A DNA stretch of 64,000 bases, from contig JAQGBZ010000003.1 in the NCBI GenBank assembly GCA_034687125.1, positions 310,001 through 374,000 of the forward strand, in the 5' to 3' direction. The notes under the pieces were generated by a model. That model was given only the letters and a program-made list of their open reading frames with translations, made no database searches and was not told the origin of the DNA. Of this stretch, positions 1,856-38,527 are shown one piece after another; the stretch's first letter is position 1; each line of letters starts with the position of its first letter. Origin of the DNA: Neelides folsomi (taxonomy: Eukaryota; Arthropoda; Collembola; Neelipleona; Neelidae). A program made the translations under genes and the position numbers.

Positions 1856-3185
1856 AAATTTATATTAAATTAATTGCAATTAACTTGAAACTAGTCAAGC
1901 TGACATTCTTAGCACAAGCTTCGACGAGCCCCACATGCTAATTGAGTTCATTTAAAAATTACTGCAGATAATAATAATTTACACAAATATGGTAATTGGC
2001 ATTCGGGTAAATTGACAGGGAATATATGGGAGGCATTGGTATTAAATCCTTATAAGTATCGTATACATTTAAATTATAACATTGGGGAATACAATATACA
2101 AAAACATTTATGGGCAAAAGGATATGAAAAAAATGAGGGTAAATTTTTGGCAAAAGTATTGAGGCAATGGAGCGTAAAAAGGAATCGTGTTTTTCTCTCT
2201 TGCTAAAATTTTTACAACTCTTCTCAATCTTTATTATGAATATGAAGTAGTTAAATAAGTATGATAATGTTGTTGGGGTGGGATCCTTAATACACCTTCC
2301 ACATCGTGACTCGTGACACTAATATCTTAAAACTCGTATTTTAAACTCAATTACTCACATGGACGTAGGAATAATTGACTTGTATGCCTGGGCCTTGTAG
2401 GATCAAGAATGAGTGAAAATGAAGACAGGGTAAGAAAGACATTGGGAGAAATTGAAGGGAAAAGTAATGAGTACAGGAGTTAAACAAGCGTCAAGAAGAC
2501 TCTTCGATCGTTTTTATCTATAAGTTGTTGAGCTAGCCAATTAAACACCCAATATATGGTTGAATAGGTCCGTAGCTAATCTAGCTAATAGGAATTGCAC
2601 ACGTGGGAAAGATTTTCCCTTGCATTTGCACTTGACCATTGTGAGAGATTGTTGTCAAGTTGGATGGACTTCTACTGATCAAAGCGAATAGACACATATT
2701 AAAAAAATGAGATGGACGTCCGTTTCGACGTTCACACACATTGTTCGGGAAACGAGTTCTCTAACTTGGTTTCCAGGTTATAGAATTTTACTGCAAAGGA
2801 TTGGAGAGTGAAGTTTAATAATTGAGGGGGAGAAACAATGGGAGGAATATTACACACGTCGATACGAAGACGTAGCGACCAGCGAACACTTCAACTAATA
2901 TCAGTTTCAATTTGACTCTTAATCACGCTCAACCAACCTTCCCCGACCACACACATTTTTTATCAAAAACATTTCGAACCATTCCAAAAAATTCATTCCT
3001 TGACCCTAAGCTCTAGCTAAAGTGTTCAATTAAACACATCGACCAGTAATAAAATCATCCATTAAACCAATTAAAATAATAAAAGGAAATTCCAAGCTAA
3101 TTCTCGACAATTTGATTTAATTTGTGTTGAATAAGCTTCCGGTGTTTTTAAGTGTTTCATTAAAGTTTTTCCAAAAGAGTTTAAA
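1856..3185. other. Intergenic, including the probable promoter and 5' UTR of the next gene
   Basis: No coding region is supported. The short ORFs around 1959-2206 on both strands match nothing and lie in AT-rich DNA. From about 2750 to 3185 the sequence is less AT-rich, lacks ORFs and runs into the start codon at 3186, so it probably holds the promoter and 5' leader of the first small membrane-protein gene. I see no clear TATA box. Confidence 0.4.
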
Positions 3186-3776
3186 ATGGAGAGTGGACGA
3201 GTGTCAAATTTAGCCATTTCCTTATTGTTCACTTTCTCCCTTTTTTCCATTGTCTTTGCTGGAGATGATGAGAAAATTAAAGAAAATGTTCATTTGATCA
3301 ATTGGGGAGCCACTGGGGAAACCGAAGTTACCGGAAGATCATGGGCTGATAATCTCTCATTATCTGGTGGCAGTTTCTTCACATCTCTCTTCATTTACGC
3401 TATTTTTCCAGCCCTTCTCATGTACATGATCGTCTACGTGACATATTTCTTTGTAACCATCCGAGCCCATTATTTGGGTCTTGGCAAACATTTCCTCATG
3501 AGGAAGGGAGAATCGGGAGAAGAATTGTTTGGATTCGGTGTTATAGAAGATCATCTCGACAAGTAAGATATTTTTCAATTTGAATTAAAAGTGACCTTCA
3601 ATTTTCTGACCTCTTTCAATCCGCCCTACTTGTTTACATTTCCTTCCAACTTTCTTCCTTCCTTATTGATAAAAAACTTCCTCTCTTTGTCTTCGACGTA
3701 CGTGATGATCCTTATCTCTTGTTTCACTTTCTCACACAGATCAAAGGAGAAGTACGGAGGAGGAAATCAGCACTAA
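3186..3776 (+). CDS. Small single-pass membrane protein, family member 1
   Basis: Not a recognised family. Exon 1 is 3186-3562 and exon 2 is 3740-3776, joined by a phase-2 intron (donor AA|GTAAGA, acceptor CACACAG), giving 137 residues. Seen: an N-terminal signal peptide (about residues 1-25, ending near VFAG), an acidic extracellular part of about 40 residues, one membrane segment with an early proline (IFPALLMYMIVYV and on to YFFV), then a basic cytosolic tail. Unspliced, the frame stops at the TAA inside the donor; spliced, it ends SKEKYGGGNQH. Three similar genes follow on the same strand at 6573, 11595 and 14419, and it is the most divergent of the four. Inference: tandem duplicates of a type I membrane protein of unknown role. 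A canonical AATAAA lies at 4203-4208. Confidence 0.72.
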
Positions 3777-6572
3777 AGACGAGTTTTGTTCTTGTTTAAC
3801 CCGAATTCCAATTGATTTTATTGGTACAATGGCATTAGTGAAACACGGGAGACGAAATAATTAATACTCTCTCACCTATTTATTGAGAGAATTATTATCT
3901 CATTTTTATCATTAAAATGTATTTTTTTGCACTTTTAATCTCTTTCTCTCTTGATTGTGTACGAAATAAGTAAATTTTATTTGTCATATAAAATGAGCCA
4001 AAATATAGTTTGTACTCTTAACATTGTTAATTCTTAACTTACTCTTTATCCTACCTAATATTTATTTCTTGGTTCAACTTGATTCAAATGAATGTGCAAA
4101 ATAATGAACATGCAATGCCAAATGCTAATATTTAATATTAATTTATTTTCTATTTATTTTCTTAATTGTTGTTTTTATATTTAATTGTCGTTGTTGTTGT
4201 TTAATAAATGTGAGTTTTTATACCTAGATTTGTTTAATTCAAAATTTCTAATCCCAGTGGAAATAACACACGGAGTTATTTCCACTGGGAAGAATTCCAT
4301 TCAAAGACTTGAATCTGTCGAGTGAGAAAAGGTGTAACGCAGTGAGCGAATGTCGAATGATGATTTACATCAAAATGCATTTACAAGTTATTCGAGAGAT
4401 TCGAGAAATGTAAATTGAATTTCATTGGACACGAGTTGTTGAACGTGTCCACGTAGAGTCACGTGTTGGTTTTGTATTCAATTAAGAAGACCTATCAATT
4501 TCAATGAGGTTTATTTAAGTGATTGAAGTTACAGTAATGAGATTGAACATTGGAGAGGAGAGAGGTTTTCCCCAGCTTGAGATTTTGTTCATTAGCTTTA
4601 TTACTAATAAATACATATTCTATAATCCAAGTGAGCTTCGTGTGGTTCACTGTGGTAAAACCTTTATGATTTATATTGAAGATTCTAATGAGAAAATGAG
4701 AATTATGACAGGTAAGTTGGATCGCCTCAAACGGACCGAGTAGTATATCAAAATGAGAAAAGAAATTGACATTCATAGCATTGTTCTATTGAAAATTGGT
4801 GGAATGAAACCGCGCCTTCTGTCCTATATTTTTCAAGTTTTCTACGAGCAAATCAATATTCTTTATACAATTTCACACATAATTTGCTTATAGACTATTC
4901 AAGTTTAATCAAAATTCCCAAATCACATTAAAGCCATTTAATTTTTCCTATTTAATTATTTTTATTGAGATTATCAAAATTTATTATTTAAAAGTTTCTT
5001 TGGAGCACGAAATGTATGTGATAAGTTGATGAGCTGTGAGATATTAAAAATTAATTACATAATAGGAGACTCGTATAAACACTAAACACACTAAGAGTAA
5101 ATACAATAATACAACCAGATATGAATAAAATACAATAAAATACAAGGTATACTTTGAACAGTAAATTAAAAGGGTCCAATCGAATATTTTGTTTGTTTCT
5201 CTTAATTAGGCTTAATCCTCGGTTTCACTTTTAATTATCCTCAATGAGGCTACCGGTAATGGTTCAACTAACGATAATGCTCATTGAGCCACGGGAGATC
5301 TTAATGAAGTTCACGGTCAAATCTTCCTCAAAGACATAAAGAAAGTCGGCGTTTTTTAAGATAAAGGTGCTTTGTTTTATAGGCCTATCTTCAATCTCCT
5401 CGTGTAATAACGCCCAAAACAAATACTGAAATGTGAAGGGTGAGAGGAGAAAGCGGCATCAGCTATTGTTAGGATCATACATAGTAATAAATTTTCTATA
5501 GTTAGTAAATGAGACGGTGAATTATCTCTAGTTGGTAAATTAGAGGTGTTATTGATGAAGATGGGTGATGGCCATTAAGGGATGATGAGCGTGCGGCGAA
5601 ATGAGCTCAGGTGAGGAGCTTTAAGGTGAGTAAGGGTGAAGCGAAACGAGAAGATAGAAGAGATGAAGGGCAAGGGCCACACGTTCATGTGTATTAAACT
5701 TAAACTATGACTCTGTGCGTTTAAACCTGCTCTCACAATTCTGGCTTATATGAAGTATTTGGCCAAAGAAATTCCTGCAAGGATGAATATACCAGTATGA
5801 ATATATCGAATATCATTGCAGAGGATACAACCGGTTTGTTCAAATGTATGTGTGATCATTTGATCATGTATTTATTATATATGAAGAGCATTGGACGTGA
5901 CTCCCCCATGCCCTCATAATGGGAATTGCGGGTTGAGTCTTCGTACCTTTCTGTTATGATTCGCTTGTAGGTTTTCAGGTTAGATGGGTAGGTGGGCAAC
6001 TCCCTTGATTTTCACCTCCTCGCGGGTTTATTTTATATATACCTTCAAACTCATGTTGACTTTGGATTTGGGGTTGGGGATTAAGTAACGTCTGAAGAGA
6101 CGCGTTGAGGAATTTGTTCAGTTCTTCTTCTTCGCCCACTCAATCCACTTGGCTCCTTTCAATTCCTCTTTTCTGGTTTTCTTTTAATTCCCTCATTTGT
6201 CAATCACCCTTTATCGTTTCATCGGAAGAAAGTAATTGAAAATCAATTTGAGAAAAAAAATCTTGAGAAAAAACTTTTTAGTATTCAAGTTTTTATAGCT
6301 TGCGTTTTGCATTTCAATCAGACGAATTACAACGTAATATTTAGCAAAGTAATTGAAGTAATTGATAATTGGCGGCGTGTCTGAAAGATTGCAACGGAAC
6401 GGTAAAGAAATTCCATATAATACTCTTTTCATTATATAAACCAGATTTTAGTAATAAAAAATTTATTGACTTATTGGATCAAGAAAAAAATTATATGCGA
6501 GAGAGCACAAGTGAAGAAAAGGGAATTAAAAATGATTATTTTTTAATTAGATAATTAGCGAAGAGGATTAAG
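3777..6572. other. Intergenic between membrane-protein genes 1 and 2
   Basis: No supported gene. The stretch holds a perfect hairpin at 4253-4289 (listed separately). From about 5550 to 6130 it is richer in G+C, and a TATATATA-like run near 6035-6042 and a TTCAGTTC sequence near 6117 could belong to the promoter of the gene starting at 6573. This is weak evidence. The ORFs at 4501-4776 overlap on both strands and resemble nothing. Confidence 0.35.
4253..4289. repeat. Perfect 15-bp inverted repeat (hairpin)
   Basis: CCCAGTGGAAATAAC at 4253-4267 is exactly complementary to 4275-4289, with a 7-base loop. It lies in non-coding AT-rich DNA 3' of the first small membrane-protein gene. It could be a short element remnant or a structured 3' RNA. 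It is not near a splice site. Confidence 0.8.
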
Positions 6573-7104
6573 ATGGAATTCCTTCGCATTTCGCTGCTTT
6601 TAATCATCTCGGTGGTTTTCGGGGAGTGCGCCGGTGGACGAAGGGATTTGCAACGAAGAGATGAAGGACGGGATTTGGAAGAGCGAAGCGACTTTTGGTC
6701 CTTTAATTCCATACTTACAAATGGATTCATCTTCGTTGGCATTCCCATTATTATGCTGATCTTCGTCTTCCAAATCTCTTATTTGTTCTACATCATTAAG
6801 ATGAGCTTCAACTCGAACGTTGACTCCATCCACATTCTGAGGAAAAGAGACGTGGATCCGGGACGACGAATTTCAACAAGTCTCACTCAACGAGTTCTCA
6901 AGAGCATTGAGTGAATCTTCTTTATTGTAAGCGATCAATTAGCAAACTAGCAATAAAGTAGACCGCATTTAATATTTTTATATACATTATCTTATACCGA
7001 ACTAATGCATTTATATACATATTGTTAGAATTAAATTGTTATTAAATGGAAACTTGAAATATTAATGACAATGATTTTCTCTTTACAGAAACTTACCCAT
7101 ATGA
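6573..7104 (+). CDS. Small single-pass membrane protein, family member 2
   Basis: Not a recognised family. Exon 1 is 6573-6910. A phase-2 intron (donor GA|GTGAAT, acceptor TTTACAG at 7082-7088) leads to a tiny exon 7089-7104, giving 117 residues ending SIENLPI. If unspliced it stops at 6914 with 113 residues. Seen: a signal peptide (about 1-20, ending near GECAG), a strongly charged Arg/Asp/Glu ectodomain (21-48), one membrane segment with an early proline (GIPIIMLIFVFQISYLFYI), then a basic tail ending LTQRVLKSIE. The gene at 14419 has the nearly identical LTQRVLDSI at the same place. This shared C-terminal motif and the early proline are the evidence for a family. The donor is weaker than in members 1 and 4, so the last exon is uncertain. 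Confidence 0.72.
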
Positions 7105-10100
7105 AAACGTGCAATTGAAACGTATGTAATTTTGAATTGAAGATTACTTCAGATGCTAATAATCAAGATTATTCGAAAGTCAATTTTATTACCAATTATT
7201 TACCTTTTAAGTTATAACAAAATAATGCCAAATTATTTTAAATATTTTAATAAATACATAAGTAATGTATAGTTATAAGTATTTATTTAAACATTTTTAT
7301 AGGTATATTATTTAGATTTTATATTATTTATATTGTATGGTAATTATTATAAGTTTTTAGTAAATGTTCAAGCAGAAAGAGCCATTCTGTATTTATTTTT
7401 AATTGATAGTAATTAATTAGTAACTTATTATGTGTAAATGATATGGAAAGTTAAAATGTTTATCTTGGACATTTATTGGCGATTCTTCACTTTATCAGAG
7501 AACCTTTGTTTATTTAATATTAATTATTTATATCGCATTATCACTTGATGACGCCTGATTTACCTCATTAAAGTTAGGAAAAAAAATATTTACATGCCTA
7601 CACAGACCCAGCACCCAGATGTGCTATTAGTTATTCGAGTTGATAAAAAGTTTGTATACCAAAAGTAGCTTACGACATACCTTGTGTCATTATTTAGGAA
7701 TTTAATACCAAATATTAAGCAGTCACTGCTAATTTAGCAGTTGGAGTCTATGTAGTGCTAAAGTATTAAACTAAAGCGCTACTAAAGTCTGTTTGTTCAT
7801 CTTTGTTTAAACTACTGACAAATAAAATGCATTGTCAATAGATTGGCGACTACGACCATTGGTATTTTTATTACCTTTAAAAATAAAGATTTTTTTATAC
7901 TTTCTACAAATATTTACCAAATATGAACACTTGTAAAACCAATTGTCTTTACCAAATAAATTAATTGTATTTATGTATTCAATAAGTTTTATTTAAGGTA
8001 TATATTTACCTATACTTATGTAATGAGTAAAATATGAAATAAACAAATTACAATATTATTTTTGATAGTGCAATACCTACTAAATAAATTGATGCTCCAT
8101 TAAATTTTAAATAATATTTCACATAATGTTTTATAAACTATTTAGACTTTACCCATAATACATATGTAGATGCATACCAAAATGTGTAAAGTATCCTTTA
8201 ATCAAAATACAGATATCTTTATATGTTAACTTTATATCTTACTTTAATAAGTAATCATTTAATGACTTCGGGCCTTAAATGTTAATTAGTAATGATATAT
8301 TGTTGAATAATAAAATGAACAATAATGCTTTACCGAATGTTCTTTTGTTTTTAAACTTTTCCTTTATTACAAAGTAATGTTCTTTATTTAAAAAGTCTAC
8401 TCTACACTTAAAATCTAAAAACACATGATTTATATATTCTGATTATAAGTATTAAACCCTTATTATTCCATATTGTATTAAATTAGTATTTTGGCACATT
8501 TTTACAGTAAGATAGTGATTAATTTATTCTTTCTTTCCACTCATCTTGTTTGACCTTTTAATTTATATGCAAATATGCAGTATTTTAAACACGTTTATTC
8601 ATTGTCCATTTATAAATATTTTATATAAATATATTATTATTATTGTAATGATAAATTTTAGATATATGTAGCATCGATGCAGATGTTAATGTCTTAAAAA
8701 CTGTTATTTCATAGACATTTATATTACTTACTTTTAGAGGAAAGTTGATTTAAAATAAAGAAGGCTCACTTCATTTTGAGGAGTATAACAATCTTTAAAT
8801 CTTTATTCATTTAAAATAATATTTATACATAATATATAAAATATGTATGTAATAAAATATAAACAAACACAATGACATCGTTGATGATATTCAATAATCT
8901 AATTGATAAACTTACCCCTCACCTTAAAAAATTATTTTACATTAAATAGGTATGCTATACGGTACGTATGTAAATACTTAATAAATCATTATGCTGTCTT
9001 ATCTTCTTGCAACCAAATTCCGTTTATAAACATTGCACTGGTAATTTATATTTAAACGCTTATATGCAAGCGACTAATTAAGTAGTGATATAAGCTCATG
9101 TGAGCTAACAGTTTTTGTATTCTTCAAGTTTGCTAATTAACGGTAAACCATTTAAATTTTTAGAGTAGAAAACAATAAGATAAGCCTTGTAGGATTGGAA
9201 TAGCTAAAATAAAATTGCGTGCCTCACCTTTTCTTCAGTTCAGGTTCAAAGAATTATTTATTAACCTCTCCGCATATTCGAAATCTGTGTGAGTAATGAA
9301 CACGTAAGAGTGGTATTATTTTCATATAAAAAGTGTGTCATATTCGTGTGATAATCCTTTGGTTCAGACATACAGTCTGACACACTTCCATGTAAAACTC
9401 CCTCAAACCAATTGAAAAGATTTGATGAACTTTGAGCAGATTTAACCAACACACAACATGCATTATTTGTAAGATCAACCTGCGCATTTATCAATAATAA
9501 GTTCTCTGATTCTTTGTAATACAGAAAGTATGTCTGAGAATGAATCATAAATTGCGGATTCATAGAAGGGTTTTCTTCACATGATAGAATGGGGATTCAC
9601 ACAGGTGATTGGAGTGATAACTTGAAAAAGGTGATGATAGGTTTAATATTTGACCTCTCTGCATAATAATATTGAGATCATTATTTTCCACATGGTTCTT
9701 GGTGCGGTTGTGGGCGGCGATTGGGAATTTGGAATTTTTAACGATCGTCGAGGCAGAGTGAATGAAAGAAAGATGTGTGAAAATTTAATAACTATACATG
9801 TGGGAAATCAAGTTCTGAGGACCCACATTAAACGAACATTTAACATACATAGTTTACTTCACACATATACTTATGTTGATCTCTGTTTAACATAGTTTGA
9901 ACCTTTCAGGTATTTTTCCAAAACTTGGAATTTAATGTGAAATTTTTCGGCCCTGCTGAAGACGCTCCCTGACTGCTGAACTTAATAAAAGTTTGAGTAA
10001 TATTTAACTACAGATGTATAAGTATGCATAAGTAGTCTGTATAAGGTTGTTGAAATTCATATGGAGTTGCATTAGCAAATAAGCAAAGATCTTCGGCAAG

Positions 10101-11594
10101 GTGGTGAAAAGGATGTCCGATGATGGGTTGGATCCTTTATGCAAATGATAGGAAAAAAGAAGAAACTGTGGCGAACCCGATGGACTTGTGAGAGAGTTGG
10201 AACGTTTCACGTTTGGCCACAACGGTGACTCCGGCAGGTGGACGAGGTGGGCAATTAGTAGGTTTTCAGGTGAGCCGGTTTTCGACAGAGGAGTTCGAAT
10301 TGGAGTATCTGCACACCTCAAGTCACATTCCAACGATTTCGCCTCTCCTCGTCCTCGCTGATGCTACTTATCGGGTTTGGAAGGAAAATTGATTTCATTC
10401 ATTTCCACCCGACTTAACTTTCTTCTTCTTCCCTTCGACTTCTTGGTCTCCTCGTCGTCTCGAGTCCTCATTGTGAGTCGCGCCTTCACCTCTGCCAGAT
10501 TCCCAGAAGGATCTTGACAAATTAATCATCACTTCTTCTCTCATCCAAAACCTACGCCGGCCACCGTGAGAATATTACTAAAACACACACCAATTAAGAT
10601 TAATAATCATACCAAAACATTACACAAAATGTTATTAATTGCAATATTCTTCTAGCGTCATTAATTCATCTTTCTTAACAACACCTTTTCTTTGATTTTC
10701 TTCTTCTTTACCTATATTTCACATTGTTGGATTAAGTTACTTCCGACGAGACATGTTCGCATGCACATTGTCTTTATATTCGGAAGATTTCTTATCTAAA
10801 CTTTGGCGTTAGAAAAGATTTCTTCTTTTACTGTCTTTCCAATTTCAATTCTTATTTCTCTATCGATTTCAAATTCAAATTGAACTGTTTGAATTGGAAG
10901 CTTTGTGTTATACGGTAGATTTGATTTTTTACAAGTATTTTAGCTTTGTAGTAATAAAAAGCACTTAAATTATTGTTAATTTGTTCTTTCTGTTAAATAT
11001 CGTTTTTTCTTTATATTTTACAGTTAAAAAATTCACTTAAAAGTGATTTCGGTAAATATTTGGTTACAGTTATTTTTATTTACATTTTTGGGATTTGACC
11101 TTTATTTATTGCATGTACATATGAGTAAGTTGTAAGTATGTCTTTATTATATTTGTTGGAAAGTATTCGAAACAATTTAAGAAGGATTTCAAGTAGGATC
11201 TTCAAGTGGTTTTTTGAACAGGATATTGGATAGATCATGTTTATGTGCCAATACAATTAATGGGACAAACTGTTATTGCTTATATCCTTATACCTACTTA
11301 AGGATGCATTATTTGTTTAGGGTGGTTAAGGTTTGCATGCTGCATGTTGGACAACTTAAAGTAGAAAAAATTGGCTCATAATTATCTTTAGTTGATTAAA
11401 TTGAGTTTACAGGTACTCATTATGTTTAAAATAGCTCCTCATTGTCAGTCTTATTAATTTATTAAATTGGTCCTGGGACACATTTGGATTGTTGGTGTTT
11501 GGGCGTATGGGAATCTCTGCTTAGTGTAGCTTAGATGGAGATTGTATTTATTGGAAAAGAGTGACTGACGAAGCGAGAGGGCGGTTTTTGTTAG
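7105..11594. other. Long intergenic region between membrane-protein genes 2 and 3
   Basis: 7105-9250 is very AT-rich, with no ORF worth calling. 9261-9563 holds a 100-codon minus-strand ORF, listed separately with low confidence. 10100-10580 is clearly richer in G+C and pyrimidine-rich, and ends with a possible donor (GGCCACC|GTGAGA, near 10568). It may be the promoter and a non-coding first exon of the gene at 11595, with an intron of about 1 kb. That is inference from composition and one splice site only. Confidence 0.35.
9261..9563 (-). CDS. Unsupported 100-codon ORF
   Basis: An ATG-initiated ORF on the minus strand in a patch less AT-rich than its surroundings. The translation contains three N-glycosylation sequons (NMT, NTT and a possible NNT context) and several cysteines, but has no signal peptide, no membrane segment and no family I recognise. 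An ORF of this length can occur by chance in 64 kb. Recorded only because the local composition and length are suggestive. Confidence 0.15.
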   Translation of the reverse strand: MNPQFMIHSQTYFLYYKESENLLLINAQVDLTNNACCVLVKSAQSSSNLFNWFEGVLHGSVSDCMSEPKDYHTNMTHFLYENNTTLTCSLLTQISNMRRG

Positions 11595-12312
11595 ATGCTG
11601 ATGCTGCTCAAGGTCTCTCTCGTGTTCATGATGTTCGGTGTCTGGATGACGACCGCGGAGCCGCCACCCATCACACTCGACTCATCTGGTTCGGAATACG
11701 CCAAGGCCACACTCCAATCGTATCATCATGTGGTAGATCACGCAGCGAAGCCGCATTATGCTGAGGAGACGAACCTGGTCCACATCATCGCTTTCCTGGC
11801 TGTCCCGCTCATCCTCATCCCGGTCATCGCGATGGCGTGCATGTGGCTGGTGAAGCCAAAGGACCCATGGGGACATCCTGGATACGGCTACGGAGGACAT
11901 GGAGGACACGGAGGACTCGGAATCGAAGTCGGAATCCCCGGCGTCGCTTCGGCCATCTTCAGGAGCGCCAAGGACGATCTTCGAACCAACGCCAGGAAGA
12001 TGAACTCGGAGACGACTGGGAGGATTCTCAAAAATTTGTAAAATCTTCATTGATAGCGTAAGATGTTTTTTCCTGTGTAATCATCACTAATTGTGAACTT
12101 GATTCGAATTTCGAACACGTTTTTTAATGAGGGTGACGTTTTCACAATGCAATGTATCCTTGCACTGGGCTTATACAAATGTAGAAATTAATTATGCAAA
12201 TCAGATTAGAGGGACTTAAACAATAAGGAGGTTAATGTTTAAAGAAAATGAAAATGAAATTTGAGTCTCTTATCATTTCAGGTTACGTTTTCTGGCTCAA
12301 AGCGTCGAGTGA
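11595..12312 (+). CDS. Small single-pass membrane protein, family member 3 (Gly/His-rich tail)
   Basis: Not a recognised family. Exon 1 is 11595-12037 and exon 2 is 12282-12312, joined by a phase-2 intron (donor TT|GTAAAA, acceptor CATTTCAG), giving 157 residues ending NLLRFLAQSVE. Unspliced it stops at 12041. Seen: a signal peptide (about 1-21), an ectodomain of about 45 residues, a membrane segment AVPLILIPVIAMACMWLV, then a cytosolic Gly/His/Tyr-rich stretch (GYGYGGHGGHGG), and ARKMNSETTGRILKNL near the end. The LVH followed by PLIxxP pattern matches the gene at 14419, and TTGRILKNL sits where the others have TQRVLxSI. Local G+C is higher than in the neighbours. The start was chosen as the first ATG before the hydrophobic leader; M3 is an alternative. 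Confidence 0.75.
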
Positions 12313-14418
12313 AAGTCGTTGCTGTTCCTTTGAACTTGAACTTGATCTGCTAAACTTGTTATTGTTCTTATATTATTTTTAATTTATAATTTTAAACAAT
12401 GTTGCTCTTATTAGACATACTGTTATTCCCTGTTATGCTCTTTGAATAAAGAGGTTGTTTTATTTTTTCATAATAATTTAATTCAACTTTTACAATAGTT
12501 AGTCATTAATCTCATTAATCCTATTTAAAGTTCGTTCACACAAGATCCATCACTCATTGGAATGTTTTCATTTAATACAGTTTAGTAAACAATAGTTTAT
12601 ATTGCATACCTATTAAAGTGACCCAAACAAAGTTTTCTTAGTTCTTATTGGTAAAGATTAACTAAACTACTTGTAAAATAAAATCTTGTAAGTTAATTTA
12701 CTTTTGATTGGGGTTTTTAAAGTTGTTTAAGTTAGGTACATGGGTTATTACATACGTTAGGATAAGTTAGGATCACAAAATAAGTAGTTTAACTAACATT
12801 AAGTGTGGATACATGCAATGTAGGCTAGACTGGTAAATTAAAAAAACGATCAAAGTAGTGGAATTAAAGTAATTATATATTAGCTAGAAGTTCAATTGAA
12901 TTGAATGAATTTGGATGAATTAATTTAATCTGCCATAAACATATTTAATGCTTAAATGCATTGTATTACCATTTAAGAAAGTAGAGAGATCAAAATAATA
13001 ATTATTGAAGAAAGTTTCGATTAGAGCCAATTAAATCGATTGCAAAATGATGAAAATTGATAAAGGTGTGAAGGAGTGATCAATATGAAAATAAAAGTTA
13101 TGACCTGTGCAATTTAACACGGTTGAGATGAGTTTTACAAATATTGAAAAGTGAAATTATCTCAAGTTCATGTTGGTGGTATCTTCTTACTTATAAATGG
13201 ATTTACTTATATATTTGTGTGGTACAGGTATATGTAAGAGGATGAGTTTCTCCACCTTACGCATCCTAACAATTTGAGCCACTTAACCTCATTGACACGG
13301 TCTGAATGGGGAGGTGTAATCTTCCACTTCTGCCGTATCAATACGTGGTCTTCTCTATCTCTTGTTTCCTATCCGCTTCACTCTTTAATTTCAAAGTACA
13401 AGTAAATGAAATCTTTTCAATTTACAAATTACTATCAATTCGGTCAGATCTTGGTATTTTTTTATAATTAAATACTTATGATATTGATATGTTAAGATTA
13501 AATATAGCCAATTCATCACAAGTTAACCAAATATTTTATATTATGGGCGCTACATACCATTAAAGTGGGCATATACATCACTTAAATATATACATATATT
13601 TAACTTAATATATTTATGATATATGATATTCATACATACATATTACATGTGTCTAACATTTAGTTTAATGTTTATTTAAACCTCAAATCCGGAGAACTTA
13701 TAATAGAGGAAAAGGGGCTTTGACCATAAATATAATAATTAAATAAAAAAAACAATGCCCGGATGTCCAAAGTTTAAAAAGTGAAGTTGTAAAGTCTGAA
13801 GGATGTGTGTAAGTAGCGATATTCCTAATATCTGGAGCGAGTGAAAGATTTGAAGATAATGAGGAGTTCGTTGATATCCGTGCAGAAAATCCCCCTCATC
13901 TCCTCTCTGTTCACTGAGTGCGAAATGATCTTCTTTTTCACTTTTCCTCTTCCTTTCTCTTTCTCCTGCGTAGTTTGCTAAGAAGATGAGATATTACTCA
14001 TATAGCACCTCTAACCCATTAAGGGTAAGTATACATTATTTTACAGCTAAGTACTTTGAGCCTCTAATAACATAAATGGCCACTGGGGATTTGCACTTTT
14101 GTGAGCACGCGGGGAGACTCAGCCTAATAATTCCATCATAAAGAGGATCTTCTCCCTTCTGTCTTTCAAGATCCTCCCTTATAGTTTATATTATTGCCAG
14201 ACGCCACCTCAAGGTCCGGTGGTTCAAAATTAATACACGTCTAACTAACTAAAACTACCTAAGATGAAGTTTAAAATACGCCTTTATTCATACACATGTG
14301 CTATACAAAAGTTGGAGTTTCTCTTTCTTTAATGATGATCCATTTGAGTAGTTAGGGTTAAAAGTGTTGGGCAGAAAGAGTTCCCTCTCAGTCAGTGGCT
14401 GAAGTTCCGGGAGTTGAG
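12313..14418. other. Intergenic between membrane-protein genes 3 and 4
   Basis: An AATAAA at 12445-12450, inside the palindrome CTCTTTGAATAAAGAG, is the likely poly(A) signal of member 3. The rest is AT-rich without supported ORFs. TCAGTCAGTGG at 14389-14399, just upstream of the start codon at 14419, resembles an arthropod initiator (TCAGT), so the transcript of member 4 may start there with a very short leader. Confidence 0.4.
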
Positions 14419-15226
14419 ATGTATTACTTTTACATTCTCTTCACGACCTTGGTGTTCCTATTGCTTGCGGGGACGGGAGCAGGAGAAAACCCGCCGAACC
14501 CTGCCAACATTGCTGAAACAGTTGACCTCACCGAATCCGCCGACACGCGACATGACAGCCACCATCTTGTCCATAATTGGTTGGCCACTTACGTTGCTCT
14601 CACCTTCCCACTTATATTCGTTCCGTTCATATCGTTCTTGATGATCAGCTGCCTGAGGGTAAACACACGACATTACCCGGTCATTTATCGTGACCATGGA
14701 GCACTCCACGCTCCGGTTCACTTCAGATCAAACGAAGGGAAAAAGTCAGGGCTTGTGAATCCTGCTCAGTTGACTCAACGGGTTCTTGATAGCATCGGCA
14801 ATTATTATGCGGATTACAAGTAAGATCAAAATTTTCTAAAATGTATTCAAAATAATTAATATGACTGAAATATTTGTAATTCTGTAGCCAAATTAGAGAC
14901 AGTATTTAATTCTATACATTTTATCAAAACAATGCACAAATTACTTTAACTCTAATTACTTTTGGCCTTGTCTTTAGTTAGTTTCAATTCCCAAAATTCT
15001 TTAAAACCATTTTTTGGCAATAAACTTTAAGTTAGATAAAGAAGAATAAGAATTTATTTTAAACTATTATAATAAAACTTATGAATAAGTTAAAAGCTTA
15101 TAACAGTTTTATATTTAGAACTGGAATTTGTTCAATAAAGTTCAATAAAATGACCAAATTTAAATTAATTTTTTCATATAACGTTTCAGAGCAAGCTTGA
15201 AGCAGAGCCAACAGAGCCCGAAATGA
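14419..15226 (+). CDS. Small single-pass membrane protein, family member 4
   Basis: Not a recognised family. The start is the ATG at 14419; the frame is open further upstream, but only GTG or TTG codons occur there. Exon 1 is 14419-14819 and exon 2 is 15190-15226, joined by a phase-2 intron (donor AA|GTAAGA, identical to member 1; acceptor CGTTTCAG), giving 145 residues. Seen: a signal peptide (about 1-22), an acidic ectodomain, a membrane segment with two prolines (FPLIFVPFISFLMISCL), a tail with His and Arg, and NPAQLTQRVLDSIGNYYADYK at the exon end. A second acceptor two bases on (exon from 15192) gives a different 22-residue tail ending at 15258; I cannot choose between them. Poly(A) signal AATAAA at 15333-15338. 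Confidence 0.75.
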
Positions 15227-15695: not shown

Positions 15696-16969
15696 ATGCC
15701 TGAGGTCTATACGGAAAAGACAGCGTCCGATGAAAACATCTTAAAAAAGAAAGGATATGTTCTCAATAAAGTCCTCGGCGAAGGATCATACGCCAAAGTG
15801 AATTTTCATTTTTATTCTTAATTAATAATTAACCATGTCTAAAATTGAATAGGTTTTTTATAATTATACATGAGTTTACAAATAGCTTTTACATAAACAA
15901 TGTTGTTCAATTGTGTTTGTTGAATCTCAGGTATACTTAGCAGAATTTCTTGATGAGAAAAATGGAAAAAAGCAAAAATTGGCGTGTAAAGTCATCGATG
16001 GCTCTTCAGCTCCCAAAGATTTCCTTAAAAAGTTTTTCCTTCGGGAGGTTCAAATCATGAGCATGGTCAATCATCCGAATTTAATTCGGGTCCACAGCAT
16101 TCTTCAACGGCGCCTTCGATATTTCCTATTCATGCAGTTTGCTGAGAATGGCGATTTGCTTGACTTCATCCGGGCAAATGGGGCGATCAGGGAGAAACAA
16201 GCCAGAATTTGGTTTTGCCAACTCGCTAAAGGTTTACCATTCATTATATCTTACACTTAAAAATGTCTTTCCATTTCACCATGAATTTAGTCTTATAAAT
16301 GTTATAATGTATTACATAGGTTTGAAATATCTCCACGACAAAGATGTGGCCCACAGGGATTTAAAGTGCGAGAATCTTCTTCTCACTGCGACGTACAATG
16401 TGAAGATATCAGATTTTGGATTCGCTCGTAAATGGAAAATTGGGGATCAAAAGAGTGAGACGTTTTGTGGATCGGTTTCCTATGCATGTCCTGAAATCAT
16501 CCGTGGAGTTCCTTATGATCCGAAGAAAGCAGACTTGTGGTCAATTGGAATTATTCTTTTCATTATGCTCAACAAATCAATGCCATTTGATGACTCGAGT
16601 CTTAAAAAGTTGTATGTGAGCCAAATGACTCGAGCTTGGAAGTTCAGAGATAAGGTATACAAATTTTATACATATTTAAAATTTTCAATTATATGCTCTC
16701 TGAAATTATACTACAATTTTTTATCTTAATGCTAATTAAATCTCAAACCACAGGTCAAAGGTGCGTTGTCTATGGACGTAAAGACCATTATTTACACAAT
16801 GCTTGAACCAAATTCAGAAAAACGACTTGGCCTAGATAAACTTTGGCTGGAACCGTGGATTCAAAGGGCCTCAAATACTCAACTTAACAGTTCAGGCCAA
16901 TCGGTCCCTCCAGAGACCGCTGAACCTAAATCTTCAACTGCATTTGAGCAATCTCGCCCGATCGCTTAG
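15696..16969 (+). CDS. Testis-specific serine/threonine kinase-like (TSSK family) protein kinase
   Basis: TSSKs are CAMK-group kinases needed for sperm development in animals. Four exons: 15696-15797, 15931-16231, 16320-16654 and 16754-16969, with matching phases and GT-AG introns of about 90-135 bases, giving 317 residues. Seen: glycine loop GEGSYAKV (28-35), catalytic lysine in LACKV (K54), HRDLKCEN (146-153), DFG (166-168), then ETFCGSVSYACPE in the activation segment (APE has become CPE), and the TSSK-like GVPYDPKKADLWSIG and SMPFDD. All residues needed for catalysis are present, so it is probably active. After the kinase domain there is only a short Ser/Pro-rich tail. The ORF at 15465-15668 just upstream is not in frame and is not part of it. 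Which TSSK subtype cannot be said. Confidence 0.93.
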
Positions 16970-18548: not shown

Positions 18549-20289
18549 ATGGGTGAAGTTGAGGATAAAAGGGACGAAGAGAAGAAACTTTTAAGGAAAG
18601 CCCTCAATCGACTTGCTATCAGACTCTTTATTTTATTCCTACTTGCAGTCATTGGAGGATTCCTATTTAGAGTAATTATGTCTTCTTACTTCTTATAAAT
18701 GTTATAAATGATAATTTGCTGATTTTTTTCTTGACTTAATTTCTTAATCCTGTAAAGACAGTTTGAATTTTAGATCAATGACACATAATAATGTTATTGA
18801 TAAGATGATCATTCCTCTATTAAACTTAATTATAGTGGTTAGAAGGAGTGAAAGAAGTTGAGCAGAAATGCGGAGTTAAAAAAGTTCGTAGAGATTTCCT
18901 CGACAACCTATGGCAAGGAAGCAGGTAAGAATCGTTTTTAATTTTTTAACATTTTTAAGGAATTACATCGAGTTCCATGAGAAGGAAAGATTTATAAGAA
19001 AAGGGTGAAAAAGTGTGGAGTATATGATTAACGACTAGTAATTCCTTTAACCCTTTGGCAGATTCATGAAAGAAGAGGAATGGAAAAGTTTAGCGAGAAG
19101 GCGGCTATTAAAATTCGAAGATGAGCTTCATACAGCCTTTGAAGCCGGAATGAATTCATATTCTGGTCAAAAAGCTTGGTCCTACCTCAATTCCATCTTC
19201 TACTCCTTGACCGTCATGACCACAATTGGTAAAAAAGGACACGTCCAATAAATAGTACGCTACCACGCTAGGATTAAGTTCAACTCCACCAATGGAGCTC
19301 ACTCAAACTCAACTCACTTCAATTACAATTTGATACAAAAAATTGTGTTTTTCTTTTATACAGGATATGGTCACATTTCGCCTCTCACCGCATTGGTTTG
19401 TTCTTTGATTAAAAAACATTACCGCACTCCTATTCTATTACCAACCAATTATTACATGGAGTTACATGTACAATTAAAGGAGATTTAAATGCGTTTTTGT
19501 GCAGGGTAAAATCTTCACGATTCTTTACGCAATGATTGGAATTCCAATATTCACGATTATAATGGTGGAGGCTGGGAAAGTTCTCACGAGGGCGCTGAAG
19601 TTATTCCTCACGAGGCAAAAAGAGAATCACGACAGTGAGAAGTTCTTCTTTCATCTAATTAAATCCTTCATTTACCCTTTCGTTAATAGAGCTAATAGAG
19701 TTTAGTTAATTGAATTAGGTAGAGTATAAATTGCATAATGGTTTATAATGAGAATTTAACTTCTTAATTAAGATAAAGGCTTAAATATGGAAATGTTATA
19801 TTTAAGGACTAACTATCGATGAAGAATTCAACTTCCCAATTCAAAGTTCTCTCATCATCCTCGCGTGTTATTCGGCCGTTGGAACGATTTTCTTTTACTT
19901 TATTGAACCTGCTTGGGGACTTTTGGGATCTTTCTACTTTATTTTTATTTCAACTTCAACCATTGGATTTGGTGATTTGGTTCCAGAGGTGAAGTATAAT
20001 TGAAGTTTACGTACTTAACATAGCAAATTAATACCAATAAATGTTTGAAATTTTATTTAAACAGAGTCCAATAATAGCCATCATGACTTCATTGTACTTT
20101 CTCTTTGGCCTTGCCCTCACGTCACTTGTCATTGGAGGAATCCAGGAACGACTTGAAGGGTCTTTGGATAAATTAACCGACAAAATGATGTCGGCTATTT
20201 CTTTTTCAAAGCAACCAATTGACCCATCTGAGAATGAATTGAAGAAAGATAACGACGAACAGGAAAAGGAAAAATCAAAAGATGACTAA
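18549..20289 (+). CDS. Two-pore-domain (K2P/TWK) potassium channel
   Basis: K2P channels carry background K+ current across the plasma membrane; each subunit has four membrane segments and two pore loops. Seven exons: 18549-18671, 18836-18924, 19062-19228, 19364-19395, 19505-19634, 19807-19988 and 20065-20289, giving 315 residues with all phases matching. Seen: the first membrane segment (about 21-40), pore loop 1 with MTTIGYGHI (about 123-131), pore loop 2 with STIGFGDLVPE (about 231-241), and the last membrane segment LYFLFGLALTSLVIGGI. The tail ends in a Lys/Glu/Asp-rich stretch. One exon is only 32 bases and codes for the end of filter 1. The extracellular cap region (residues 42-100) has a single visible cysteine (QKCGV). 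It is short for the family but complete. The subfamily cannot be named. Confidence 0.92.
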
Positions 20290-22586: not shown

Positions 22587-25500
22587 ATGAGATTAGCCGT
22601 AGGATCCTTCGTCTTGTGCCTCTTCTTGGAGCTCGGACTTGGGCAAGAATTGTTTTACCAACTTCCGACTCCTTACTCCTATTCTTGTCTCAATGAGACC
22701 TGCTCAAGGGACAAAAATCCGGAAGATTCTCCGAGCACGCAGAGCCTTGCCAAGTGCCGGCTCCTCTGTGGAGAGTATAGGTCAATTTGGCCCCGCCCTA
22801 CTGGAGCCGTTGACTTGGCCGATGACCTCGTCGCCTTCAAACCGCAAAGGTTACACCTACACCTTTCATATCAACTTCCATTACTTAATCTCCGCACCCC
22901 ATGTCCCTATACAGCCAGGCGCTGCATATGAAAGCCAACTGGAATTAAGGGACTTTAAGCCTTTTATGACCCGACCTTCCTCACCTCAAATTTTATGCCT
23001 CATTTAGTTGTAAAATACCTAATAGGATTTCAAATTTCTTAACGAGGATATCATAAATTCATAAAATTCTCATTTCCGACATTTTTATTTACAAAATGTT
23101 CAAAAATGTTATTTTTCCTAAGTATCTCATACACATGCTTAAGCATTATTAACTATAAATACATTACAGGTTATTTATTACAGATACTTCTCTGCTCTGC
23201 ATACACTCGTTTTGAACAATACCATTCATGCCTGTAAAAATATTAGAATTGATTACAGATGAATAGTTTGCTCAAAAGATTCACAAACTACTCTAGATAC
23301 ATAAATATGTACTGTACAGACTGTACACTATACACAACGTTATAAAGCATGGGATACAAAGATATCTTGTTGTATATTATTATGTAACAATCTGTATGTA
23401 AGGGATATACTTCATGTATGTACTTAGGTAGTTGTTAATAGATAAGTATAGGATCAAAATCTGGATAATCTTCCAAATGACATACCTATAATGATTAATG
23501 ATTGGTGAGGTGAATAATGTAATTGCATTGTAATTTAGACTCTTCATCAATTGGGCCCATCCTCCTTCAGCGAGAGTGAGAGACATGCTTCAACAAGCAG
23601 GAAAAATCTTCCAGGTCGAACTTCTCAAAATGCATCCAAACTACGATTCAACAACCATTGTTGGAAAGCAACCCAATCCATTCGATAAAAAATATACATC
23701 AGACATTGAGCGGACAACTGTGATGGTTTCCCTTAAAATTGACACAGCGGTTGACAAGTTGACTTTAAATACCAACGAGTCTTACACTCTCTCCATGAAC
23801 ACGTCAGAGAATGGAGTTGTCGAAGTTCGAGTGAGTTGAATGAAAAAAATCATTTCTTCTTCTTTCCCATTTTATTCTAAAGTCTCTCAAGATTGAGTGA
23901 ATGAACTTTTAAATGTTTTAAAGGTATCGGCTCCTACATATTTTGGAGCGAGGAATGCACTTGAGACTTTGAGCCAAATGATCAACTACGAAGATACCTG
24001 CGATTGTCTCATTATGGTCCGTCATGGATTTATTGAAGATGAACCTGCTTTCCCTTACAGAGGACTCATGATTGGTACGCCTTCTTCATTTTTAATCATT
24101 CTATGAAAATCCATGCTCCTTAAATTAAATTCAATGGCCCAAAACGATCCTTAAATTAAAAAAATGCCCAATTTATTTGAAGTTTCATAATTTCATGATT
24201 TGTAATTTTTATTCTTATGCTTTCTTGGTCCTATAAGGAAATAATAATTTTTTGATTATATTCACGACTTATAAATTACAATACATGTGTAATATGTGGA
24301 ACTTTGAAAAATGAGCTTAGTTTTTTTTATTAATCTTAAATAAATAAAAAAAAACGATATTAGCCTTTAGCTAAATAAAATTTGTTAAATTTCACAAGAT
24401 TTAAATGAGAATTATTTGAATTAGATTCTGGACACAACTACATCAGCCCAAAAGGAATCAAAAGGGTCGTTGACGCGATGTCTTACAACAAGTTGAACAC
24501 TCTCCACTGGCACATCGCTGACGCCCACTCCTTCCCATTCTACTCAAGGCGTGCCCCGAAAATGGCCCTTTATGGTGCATACGCCCCAAACAAGATCTAC
24601 TACCCAGACACAATCAGAGAGCTTGTTGAATACGGTCAAGTCCGAGGAATTCGAATTGTTCCTGAAATCGGCGGTCCATCAAGAGCCGGAAACGGATGGC
24701 AATGGGGAGAGCGTGAAGGAAAAGGCGACCTCGTCGTTTGTCTCAACAAAGAACCATGGAGAGAATTTTGTGCTGAGCCGCCATGCGGACAACTCAATCC
24801 ACTTAACAATGAAACATACAGAGTTTTGGGAAGAATTTACCGTGACGCTTTGGATGCTTTTGCTGGAACTGACTTGTTTCACATGGGAGCTGACGATGTC
24901 AACTTTGCTTGTTGGAATTCATCTGATGCCATGAACGACGTTCTTAAGGCCACTGCCCAAATCCCCAACGACGTCACTTTCCAACGGTTGTGGATGGAAT
25001 ATCAATCACGAGCTCTTCAAACCCTCTTTGACGGAGTTCAACCCGGACATGACAAACCAACTCCAATCATCTGGGACAGTCGTCTTACCTCACTCCGTGA
25101 CTCCGATGTCGTTCTCGACCCCGACACTTACATCATTCAAGTCAAGAGCCCTGCAAGAGAACCTGCACTTGCCAAGATCATCAACAGGGGTTACAAGCTG
25201 ATCTTCTCCAATGCTGACTCATGGTCTCTTGACTGCGGATTCAACTCTGGTCTCACTCCACCTCTTGGAATTGGACCACCGAATCCAAATCAAGCACTTC
25301 CAATTTGCGGAGGGGATTACAAGACATGGAAGACAATTTACGACAACGATCCAATGAACATTGCTGCCACTCATCACAACAATGAAACTGCAGCTTTTGC
25401 TCAGGTTTAAATAATAAAATAATAATTAATAATAAAATATTTTACAACTGAGATTAATATTACTAGATAATAAATCTTACATTAATTCTTAAAATTCAAA

Positions 25501-25885
25501 ATAAGATAATTTGTAATATACAAATATTTTATAGTTTATGATCTACAGTAAAAGTATGATCTATAATTATATCTAATCTCATATTAGGATAGTAGCATGA
25601 AAAATTAAATAGTTGAATAAATTATTTTTTAATTTAAAGGTTCTCGGTGGAGCTGGAACAATGTGGTCAACTGAAACGGATGAGATGACCCTTGAGCCCA
25701 AATTGTGGCCACGAGCATCTGCCCTTGCTGAGCGACTCTGGACGAATCCGATCACTTCATGGCGTGAGGCTGCTCCACGGCTCGACGCTCATCGAGAACG
25801 GTTGGTTCAACGAGGAGTGCAAGCGGAGGCCATCCGACCAGAATGGTGCTTCCACAACAGAGTCGAATGCGAACTTCTTCTCTAA
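22587..25885 (+). CDS. GH20 beta-N-acetylhexosaminidase-like protein with lost active site (probable pseudoenzyme)
   Basis: Family: insect chitooligosaccharidolytic hexosaminidases, secreted enzymes that trim chitin oligomers. Five exons: 22587-22849, 23539-23830, 23924-24074, 24425-25404 and 25640-25885 (643 residues, the usual length). Seen: a signal peptide (1-19), the GH20 N-terminal domain, then the barrel with CLNKEPWREFC and EPPCGQLNP intact and most cysteines kept. The catalytic positions are changed: the substrate Arg after the second-domain start is H239 (DSGHNY), the PEFDAPAH-type motif is PEIGGPSR (315-322), the GGDEV catalytic pair is GADDV (390-394, Glu to Asp), the LWGG tryptophan region is QVKSP, NYDALYxDCG is NADSWSLDCG, and GGEA is GGAG (565-568). 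The frame is intact, so it is not a decayed pseudogene. Inference: a secreted, folded, non-hydrolytic chitin- or glycan-binding protein. Confidence 0.93.
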
Positions 25886-36046: not shown

Positions 36047-38527
36047 ATGGGGAATGGAAGAAGGGACGAAAAGAGCCATCATGCTCTCGTCCTATCTTGG
36101 ATATTTGAAACTGCAATTCATGTATGAGCTAAAAAATGTTTAAATGCTATAATAAATACATTAACTCAAATATATTATTTTAAAAAAACATAAATTATCA
36201 AATGGAGAACAAATAATTGTATAATTTACAAATTATTCTGCCACTTTCAATTATTCAATTGCAACCTTATATAATTTCAGATTTACATCTGTGTCATTAG
36301 TCCGAATTGGACAAGCCATGTGATCTTATGGGCAATTGGATCATTTGGCGTTTCACTCAAAAGTCTTTTTTGGGTCTCGAAACGACTAGATTTCCAAGGA
36401 AGATTCACTGCAAGACTTCTTTGTTATCTCATGCACTCTATTCAACTGGGTAAGATTTAATTTAACTACGAAGAATTAAGCCATTTTGAATAATAAATGA
36501 AGAGTAATTGAGAATTGATTTTTAACTTTTCAGCTATACCATGGCGTTACCTGAAACTGACCCTCGCTTTTGAAAAAGGCGACCTCGTCGAGTTCCGCGA
36601 CCTCCGATTATTTCAATTGGGCCTTGGCGCTCTTCCACTTACCCTTTTCCATTCAATCACTCTTTGTTCTCTCGATGGACTCGACGAAGAGAAATTGACT
36701 CTTTTCCTTCTCCTCTCTTCTGAAGTGTTTTCGATCTCCCTTGGACTTCTCCTATCCTCCTCACAACTCGAGAATTATTTTTACGTCAGTCCTTCCTTGG
36801 TGTTGAATGTTTTGAGTAAAGGACTGCTCCTGGTCGGGCGCGTGATCCTCGTCGGGCTTTTGGCTCTCAGTTTGGGCCATTGGTATTGGATCGTCCTTGC
36901 TGTGGCTTTCCACTTCCTCTTCACTTCGTTCTGGGCATTGTACAGCGAAAGGGATTTTGACTTCCCGGCTCTTCTGCGTCTCTTCGCTGTCAATTATTTC
37001 CTCTTCTTTGACGTATCCTTCGCTCGAGTGGAACTCTCAACGGTGGGGCCGATCACTCTTGCATTACTCGAGTCAGTTGCTCCTTTGATCCTCTTAAGGA
37101 AAACCGGCGGAGATGAGAAGTTTGGATTTCAATACACCGTGTGGAATTTGAGAGCAATCGGTGGGATTTCATTGGCCGTTGGACTTCTCCTTCAGTCGCT
37201 CATTGGGAAGTGGAGGAAAAAAGGAAGCGAGAAGAAAAGCGAGTTTACGGATTTGGAAACTTCAACTTCACATTCGAATGAATCTCGTCAAGATGAAACT
37301 GAGGTTTGCTTTTTTATTTACTAATTTTCAGCATTTCGTTTTGAACATGCACGATTTAACCCATCTGTATGTAGTTAAATTAAATTACTTTATTTTATAA
37401 ATTAATCAACTAATTTTATATGACTTGAATAGGAAAAAGAAAAAGAAGAGATTAAACCAGAAGCTCCATCAACTCAAGTGAGCTTCGTCAACGAAGAAGA
37501 GAAACAAATTTCTTCAGAAGACTCTCAATGTCAGACACAATTCTATCTTGAACCAAATTTTGTTTATCCAAAGTCAACTAAGATCAACTCGATGAGTCCA
37601 AAAGTTCGAAAACTGAGCACTTTAAGAAAAAAGCGTTGTTCGAGTGCTCCAATTCCTCCAGATGATCAAAAGAAGATGAGATTATCTAAAGACTATGATT
37701 CCTTTTCTTATTATTCTTGCACTTTAAGCCAAGATGGAGAGTCGAGGATAATTCTCAACTATCCAAAACACGAACATAAAAGTGAAAGATGCTCCCTTGA
37801 AAATGAACCTAGAGGAAGCAAAGATGAAAATCAGAATCATTCCAAGCCTTCAACAATGAGAAATGGGCGTGTAAACAAAGAAATTCAAACTGAGGTCGTG
37901 ATGAGGCGCCCACATACCAACGACCGCCATCCCGAAATTCAACCCGTTAAGCGAAAAACGAGCCCAGATGGTACGAGGGAGCGTTCGGGGCGAGACGTGA
38001 GCGTCTCTCGAGTCAAATGTGATGTTGAAAAAGAAGAAGAAAAAAGAAAAGGTCATGATTTCGGAATCCTCATTTACGAATCCCCCGAAGTGTGTCCCAA
38101 ATTGCGCGTGTTGTGTGCAAGGTGTTTGGAAGGACACGATCCCCTTTTGTCAACGTGTAACCTAGCTTCGGAAACAACGGACTATCCATCAGAAACCGAA
38201 GGTACCCATTACGAGTCCCAATCCTCCCATGATGAATCCCAAGAGTCGCAGATTTATGGAAGAAATTGGAACATAATTAGCAAATATTGGGGCAATTATC
38301 GTCCCAATAACCCTAATTTCAATTTCAACATCAATGGAATGGAATATGTGAAGATTTGGCTCTTGGCATCGAATTTAATTCCAAGACCGCCATCTCCCCC
38401 ACCGCTTTCCTTCCAACCGCCCCCGAAAAGGAAAATTCATCCTCGAGTACCCTATACGCATACACACGATGTCCGATACCATAATGATAATACTCATTAC
38501 CCAAAGGATCTAGAGATACGAGTATAA
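36047..38527 (+). CDS. XK-related membrane protein with long hydrophilic tail
   Basis: XK-related proteins are multi-pass membrane proteins; some scramble phospholipids. Four exons: 36047-36121, 36281-36449, 36534-37303 and 37433-38527, all phases matching, giving 702 residues. Seen: several hydrophobic segments between about residues 9 and 325, and XK-like landmarks such as IPWRYLKL followed by a charged stretch, FRDLRLFQLGLGALPLTLF (where the family has a LRLFE-PQL pattern), a VAFHFLFTSFWALY segment and a last membrane helix before a basic WRKKGSEKK. Similarity is distant; the family's ETAPQL-type motif is degenerate. From about residue 340 to the end is a 360-residue Ser/Glu/Lys-rich, probably disordered tail with a late proline-rich run. 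The first exon is inferred from phase and hydrophobicity, so the start is the weakest part. Confidence 0.62.

Follow-up and report, generated by a model that had tools for sequence, protein, structure and literature searches.

Animals are known to have pseudoenzymes that derive from GH18 chitinases; insect IDGFs, which belong to GH18, are inactive. Pseudoglycosidases are known in GH18 (YKL-39), GH1 (klotho) and GH33 (CyRPA) (PMC7828330). In the literature searched (titles, abstract openings and some paper passages, with subscription journals sparsely covered), no natural GH20 pseudoenzyme was described as such. A term probe of two GH20 surveys (PMC2492878, PMC11308363) did not return the word 'inactive'.

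The closest solved relative of the gene considered here is OfHex1 of Ostrinia furnacalis (insect group I; PDB 3NSM, 3NSN, 3OZO, 3VTR). In this enzyme, D249, H303 and E368 form a hydrogen-bond network, and W490 together with E328 binds the +1 sugar; at the -1 sugar, W524 stacks and E526 forms a hydrogen bond (PMC3531433). W448 is one of three tryptophans in the core of the pocket (PMC11573315). From the C-terminal arm, P582 and E583 extend to the partner subunit close to its R220 and E526 and thereby complete the neighbour's pocket (PMC4449183). OfHex1 was found in the moulting fluid along with OfHex3, which interacts with HEX1 in a pull-down (PMC3741120).

The gene from Neelides folsomi described below shares with OfHex1 the Cys-rich N-terminus, the GH20b and GH20 domains, the EPPCGQLNP loop and the C-terminal PEWC, at 40% identity. 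Unlike OfHex1, its product lacks six of the eleven critical residues and W490, and the loop corresponding to L478-496 is replaced and longer. As a glycosidase relative that appears to have lost catalysis, it is comparable to YKL-39, the IDGFs, klotho and CyRPA. These belong to other GH families, however, and the present protein has also lost sugar-holding residues; glycan binding by it is hypothetical. We read the gene as a HEX1-like duplicate, retained by selection and probably encoding a secreted, non-hydrolytic GH20 pseudoenzyme, with a probability of about three in four.

Gene Structure and Protein Features

The window, that is, the whole stretch of DNA analysed, comprises 64,000 nucleotides (contig JAQGBZ010000003.1, positions 310,001 to 374,000). 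Splice-site enumeration gave a gene of five exons on the plus strand at 22587-25885, with an intact frame of 643 aa. Its parts are as follows:

22587..22849, plus strand: exon 1, signal-peptide-like start, Cys-rich N-terminus and start of the GH20b domain (splice enumeration, alignment)
23539..23830, plus strand: exon 2, GH20b domain (Pfam PF14845); donor CGA/GTGAGT preferred, the alternative end at 23824 being 2 aa shorter
23924..24074, plus strand: exon 3, end of GH20b and first GH20 stretch (AFPYRGLMI)
24425..25404, plus strand: exon 4, bulk of the GH20 domain (Pfam PF00728, 8.7e-71 for the whole protein)
25640..25885, plus strand: exon 5, end of GH20, C-terminal arm (PEWC) and stop
25237..25329, plus strand: lengthened, replaced Pro-rich loop equivalent to OfHex1 L478-496, which bears W490 (alignment)

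The four introns (689, 93, 350 and 235 bases) are all GT-AG and have a GC content of 26%. Two versions of the exon 2 end differ by 2 aa; the strong donor GTGAGT yields the 643-aa version, which also agrees with the residue numbering of an original prediction made from the same DNA. The ATG at 22587, the stop codon ending at 25885 and the intact frame were all placed exactly by that prediction, and its numbering (H239, PEIGGPSR 315-322, GADDV 390-394, QVKS 474-477, SNAD 497-500, GGAG 565-568) is right throughout. Mis-joining of exons was considered and rejected, given the GT-AG borders and the open frame. An independent spliced alignment against OfHex1 reproduced exons 3 and 4 without deviation and also found where exon 5 starts and where exons 1 and 2 end; it split the weakly conserved exon 2 in two and added a spurious two-base exon. 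A second or allelic copy was likewise rejected: the exon 4 DNA matched itself at 100% and other places at 65% and 68%, in a search that skips very common words.

The protein matches Pfam GH20b (PF14845, 5.3e-15) and the GH20 catalytic domain (PF00728), which places it in the GH20 family. Among solved structures, the six best sequences score 434-440 bits, followed by 5OAR at 221 bits and human HEXB at 203 bits; the entries of the six that are not named in the next sentence are presumably OfHex1 as well. Entries 3NSM, 3NSN, 3OZO, 3VTR and 5Y1B are OfHex1 according to the OfHex1 papers cited. The predicted signal peptide corresponds to a hydrophobic N-terminus with a maximum 10-residue mean Kyte-Doolittle value of 2.67, signal-peptide-like by hydrophobicity alone, so the protein is probably secreted. 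Most cysteines are kept, as was claimed: 11 of the 12 in the OfHex1 stretch used lie at aligned positions, and a loop insertion may supply the counterpart of the twelfth. The protein has six N-glycosylation sequons.

Several other features were observed in the window:

724-1218: copine (Pfam)
16085-16726: protein kinase (Pfam)
19806-20000: ion channel (Pfam)
36512-37321: XK-related protein (below the Pfam cut-off)
46347-46694: MMS19 (Pfam)

Four small ORFs (113-153 aa as scanned) at 3135-14820 gave no Pfam match at E 0.01 and resemble a group of short proteins, each with a signal peptide plus another hydrophobic segment. One of the four, at 11595-12038, ranks first in codon adaptation in a sample of 66 ORFs. 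Elsewhere in the genome, eight exon-level matches to DIOX_N (isopenicillin-N-synthase-like oxygenases) were found on contigs C223, C54, C96, C346 and C318. To our knowledge, this family is unusual in animal genomes; such matches would fit a springtail. COX1 was identified by Pfam, and from the translations nad2, cox2 and atp6 can be read around it in the order nad2-cox1-cox2-atp6, an arrangement that fits a hexapod.

Changes in the Active Site

The residues critical for insect GH20 activity have been published (PMC3741120) and were transferred here to OfHex1 numbering by us. They comprise D249, H303, D367 and E368 for catalysis, R220, Y475, D477 and E526 for substrate binding, and W424, W448 and W524 for stacking. 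An active GH20 enzyme is expected to hold all eleven, the Asp-Glu pair included, and the window protein holds five (D249, D367, D477, W424 and W524). The six lost residues were located by alignment:

24433..24435, plus strand: codon of H239, replacing substrate-binding R220
24682..24684, plus strand: codon of R322, replacing H303 of the catalytic network
24895..24897, plus strand: codon of D393, replacing the catalytic acid/base E368
25144..25146, plus strand: codon of K476, replacing W448
25225..25227, plus strand: codon of S503, replacing Y475, which contacts the acetamido group
25670..25672, plus strand: codon of T573, replacing E526

Further changes are D299G, V327A and the absence of W490; E328 is kept. 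Consequently, one of the three group I residues of the +1 subsite remains (E328). The entrance loop shares 3 of 19 residues with OfHex1; that of the intact paralogue L021, from the same genome, shares 15 of them. All eleven critical residues are present in OfHex1, L021, L025, L027 and human HEXB, and ten in L026, L023, L024, L028 and human HEXA.

Alignment to solved insect GH20 enzymes had been proposed as a check on whether the residues sit at shifted positions. The replacements came out the same in four MAFFT modes, and neither these nor a HMMER alignment restored the lost residues, so a shift is rejected. A glutamate does lie one position past E526 (WSTE vs WSEQ), yet the alignment is gapless there.

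Most of the predicted losses were borne out: the substrate-binding Arg (R220H), the Asp and His of the PEFDAPAH-type motif (D299G and H303R), the Glu of the catalytic pair (E368D, with the Asp, D367, kept) and the Trp of LWGG (W448K). For two others the loss stands and the residue was misnamed. The critical Tyr is gone (Y475S), but the Tyr of NYD corresponds to Y471, a position at which three paralogues with 10 or 11 of the 11 critical residues have S, N or V. Similarly, the substrate-binding Glu is gone (E526T), but the Glu of GGEA corresponds to E520, where one HEXA/B-type paralogue with 10 of 11 has Gly. The statement that every active-site region had been rewritten went too far, since D249, D367, W424, D477, W524 and E328 are kept.

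The losses concentrate in the active-site pocket. Ten GH20 sequences (OfHex1, human HEXA and HEXB and seven paralogues) share 47 invariant columns. By the strict list, 6 of 9 critical columns are altered in the window protein, as are 3 of 38 others (p=0.00054); a wider pocket set, to which D299 was added because the original prediction named it, gives 7 of 10 and 2 of 37 (p=6e-5). When each comparison sequence was left out in turn as a control, pocket changes numbered 0/10 in nine sequences and 1/11 in L026. Against a background of the five HEX1-like sequences only, the enrichment held (6/10 vs 15/109, p=0.002). The kept framework, also part of the prediction, is reflected in the rarity of changes at framework sites.

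It is unlikely, judging from homologues, that the window protein hydrolyses N-acetylhexosaminides or binds chitooligosaccharides in the ordinary way, because E368, W490, R220, W448 and Y475 are changed together. A Vibrio GH20 enzyme retained <5% of its activity once its acid/base Glu had been changed to Ala or Gln; the mutants described did not include Glu-to-Asp (PMC4752478). Some residual activity may persist in the window protein, as E368D is conservative and D367, D249, W424, W524 and E328 remain.

These same remnants, with D477, and the maintained frame and codons could be taken to indicate an enzyme of changed chemistry or substrate, in which an Asp-Asp pair and an altered pocket cut another glycoside; the nearest relative of the gene, L022, moreover keeps R220, H303 and E526. 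We consider this unlikely. The GH20 nucleophile is the substrate's own acetamido group (PMC3531433), and W448 and Y475 are lost. Of the D249-H303-E368 network, both H303 and E368 are changed.

One function suggested for the protein was that of a simple chitin or glycan lectin, holding chitooligosaccharides in the ancestral pocket in the manner of certain GH18 chitinase-like proteins. Binding of chitooligosaccharides is indeed known for pseudoglycosidases of GH18, YKL-39 among them (PMC7828330), and two pocket tryptophans and E328 are kept here. However, the replaced entrance loop and the loss of R220, Y475, E526, W448 and W490, which hold the -1 and +1 sugars, weaken the idea. In OfHex1, W490A alone increased the Ki of TMG-chitotriomycin 2277-fold (PMC3531433). 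Because the sugar-holding residues have gone along with the catalytic ones, a chitin lectin using the old pocket is improbable; binding of a changed ligand is possible.

The GH20 Genes of Neelides folsomi

The search of the assembly (75.1 Mb, 840 contigs) for GH20 gave at least 26 exon-level matches, which were resolved into ten loci. Eight loci besides the window gene were modelled with our own intron-aware aligner, some of the models being without ends. The tenth, L029, is short and divergent and was left out of further analysis; we take it to be HEXD-like. In the tree, seven HEX1-like and five HEXA/B-like rows are split with support of 100/100 on both sides, and the window protein falls among the former. 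L023, L024 and L028 group with human HEXA and HEXB, and L025, L026 and L027 form a second HEX1-like clade. With regard to the group I HEX1 clade, OfHex1, L021, the window gene with its nearest relative, and L025-L027 are left without firm order.

The nearest relative of the window gene is the sister gene L022 (C158:27831-30941, plus strand), with 49% identity and clade support of 98/96. Both carry E368D and a basic residue in place of W448 (Arg in the sister), and both have lost Y475 (Y475Q in the sister) and W490. Unlike the window gene, the sister keeps R220, H303, D299, E526 and the GGEA motif. By the strict list and against the ten-sequence background, its changes are also enriched in the pocket (3/9 vs 0/38, p=0.0052); against the five HEX1-like sequences, the enrichment was not significant (strict 3/10 vs 10/109, p=0.078; wide p=0.13). 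One scan upstream of L022 gave no candidate for a signal-peptide exon.

The coding model of L022 lies head to head with that of L021, 3.4 kb away. Looking for an active paralogue in the same genome had been recommended, and L021 answers to that description: with 11 of 11 critical residues and W490, it looks like an active HEX1. The members of the second HEX1-like clade (L025, L026, L027) have G or I followed by Q where OfHex1 has V327/E328, and T, A or Y where it has W490; L026 also has D249E. Ile/Gln and a missing Trp have been published for insect group III (PMC3741120), to which L025-L027 are similar in this respect.

On the simplest reading of the residues common to both genes, the acid/base Glu and some of the pocket had probably gone already in the ancestor of the window gene and L022, and further residues would then have been lost from the window gene after the split. 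The common losses may also have arisen in parallel. The prokaryotic and viral collections genome_contigs and viral_contigs, scanned with two short peptide patterns at a time, contained no relatives of the two genes; such collections are silent on other arthropods.

Selection and Codon Usage

A dN/dS analysis, likewise suggested as a check, was run on paralogues. The codon model covered 458 aligned codons of six genes, and five branches were tested (window, L022, stem, L021, L025). Omega=1 was rejected on the window branch (2dlnL 12.6, p=3.8e-4), as it was on L022 (2dlnL 45.4), L021 (32.6) and L025 (13.9). Because synonymous changes are saturated, the omega values themselves are unusable, and only the finding that omega=1 is rejected is relied on. 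For the short stem, omega=1 was not rejected (2dlnL 0.1, p=0.73); there the free model fell slightly below the single-omega model, as the optimiser had not fully converged. A window-specific omega fits no better than a single one (p=0.18). Whole-protein relaxed selection is therefore not demonstrated; the original pseudoenzyme proposal is sustained as regards an intact and constrained gene with pocket-focused losses.

Codon usage was compared with that of three actin genes and EF1a, a small reference set of seven exon pieces. The window gene has a CAI of 0.531 and L022 one of 0.483, with 0.364 for L021, 0.355 for L025, 0.312 for L026 and 0.279 for L027, which makes the window gene the most actin/EF1a-like of the six HEX1-like genes. 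All six exceed their own-GC3 null to some degree, with z of 14.6 (window gene), 9.5 (L022), 5.5 (L021), 4.3 (L025), 4.4 (L026) and 2.4 (L027). In codon adaptation, exon 4 of the window gene ranks second among 66 long ORFs from the window and the fetched loci, some of which are perhaps not genes. This codon usage, an indirect indicator, suggests that the window gene and L022 are made in larger amounts than the intact paralogues.

A young pseudogene that is not yet broken would be compatible with changes at otherwise invariant sites and with the result for the stem branch. Such a gene would hardly have diverged from its sister by about 50% while keeping 643 codons free of stops and four introns with GT-AG borders, or show rejection of omega=1 on its own branch, few changes at framework sites and codons more adapted than those of the intact paralogues; the idea is highly improbable. 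The window gene combines catalytic loss, an intact gene and constraint, by which a pseudoglycosidase is recognised, and is predicted from its residues to be inactive. Its reading as a retained pseudoenzyme is well supported as far as the sequence goes.

Proposed Origin and Role

The retained pseudoenzyme would derive from a HEX1-like chitooligosaccharide hexosaminidase through duplication and stepwise loss of the active site, with subsequent retention by selection for a non-hydrolytic role. A folded, probably disulphide-bonded and glycosylated body would most likely serve as an extracellular partner, structural or binding. This could involve self-pairing or pairing with an active hexosaminidase via the retained dimer elements. 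Alternatively, the re-tooled pocket may hold a ligand other than GlcNAc.

As a precedent, OfHex3 shows that HEX1 can interact with a second hexosaminidase; OfHex3 differs from the window protein in being active and keeping the critical residues. P582 and E583 are retained in the window protein. Its C-terminal arm is identical to that of OfHex1 at 8 of 16 residues, against 11 of 16 in both L022 and L021, and with the arm less conserved, the partner idea gains mild support only.

A bolder and rather doubtful extension would make the window gene and its sister the founders of a GH20 group analogous to the chitinase-like growth factors. The two proteins would be abundant and secreted, with a pocket re-tooled through the change of W448 to Lys/Arg for another, perhaps anionic, ligand or for a protein partner.

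Significance

The sister gene and the codon usage make the window gene of greater interest than a lone degraded gene. One genome holds three stages: an intact-looking HEX1; L022, in which the catalytic Glu and some of the pocket are gone; and the window gene, from which sugar-holding residues are missing as well. With these stages in a single animal, it would become possible to test in what order residues were lost and whether a new role was gained. Should the founder proposal be true, an enzyme of chitin digestion would have turned, in this lineage of arthropods, into a protein with a structural or signalling role.
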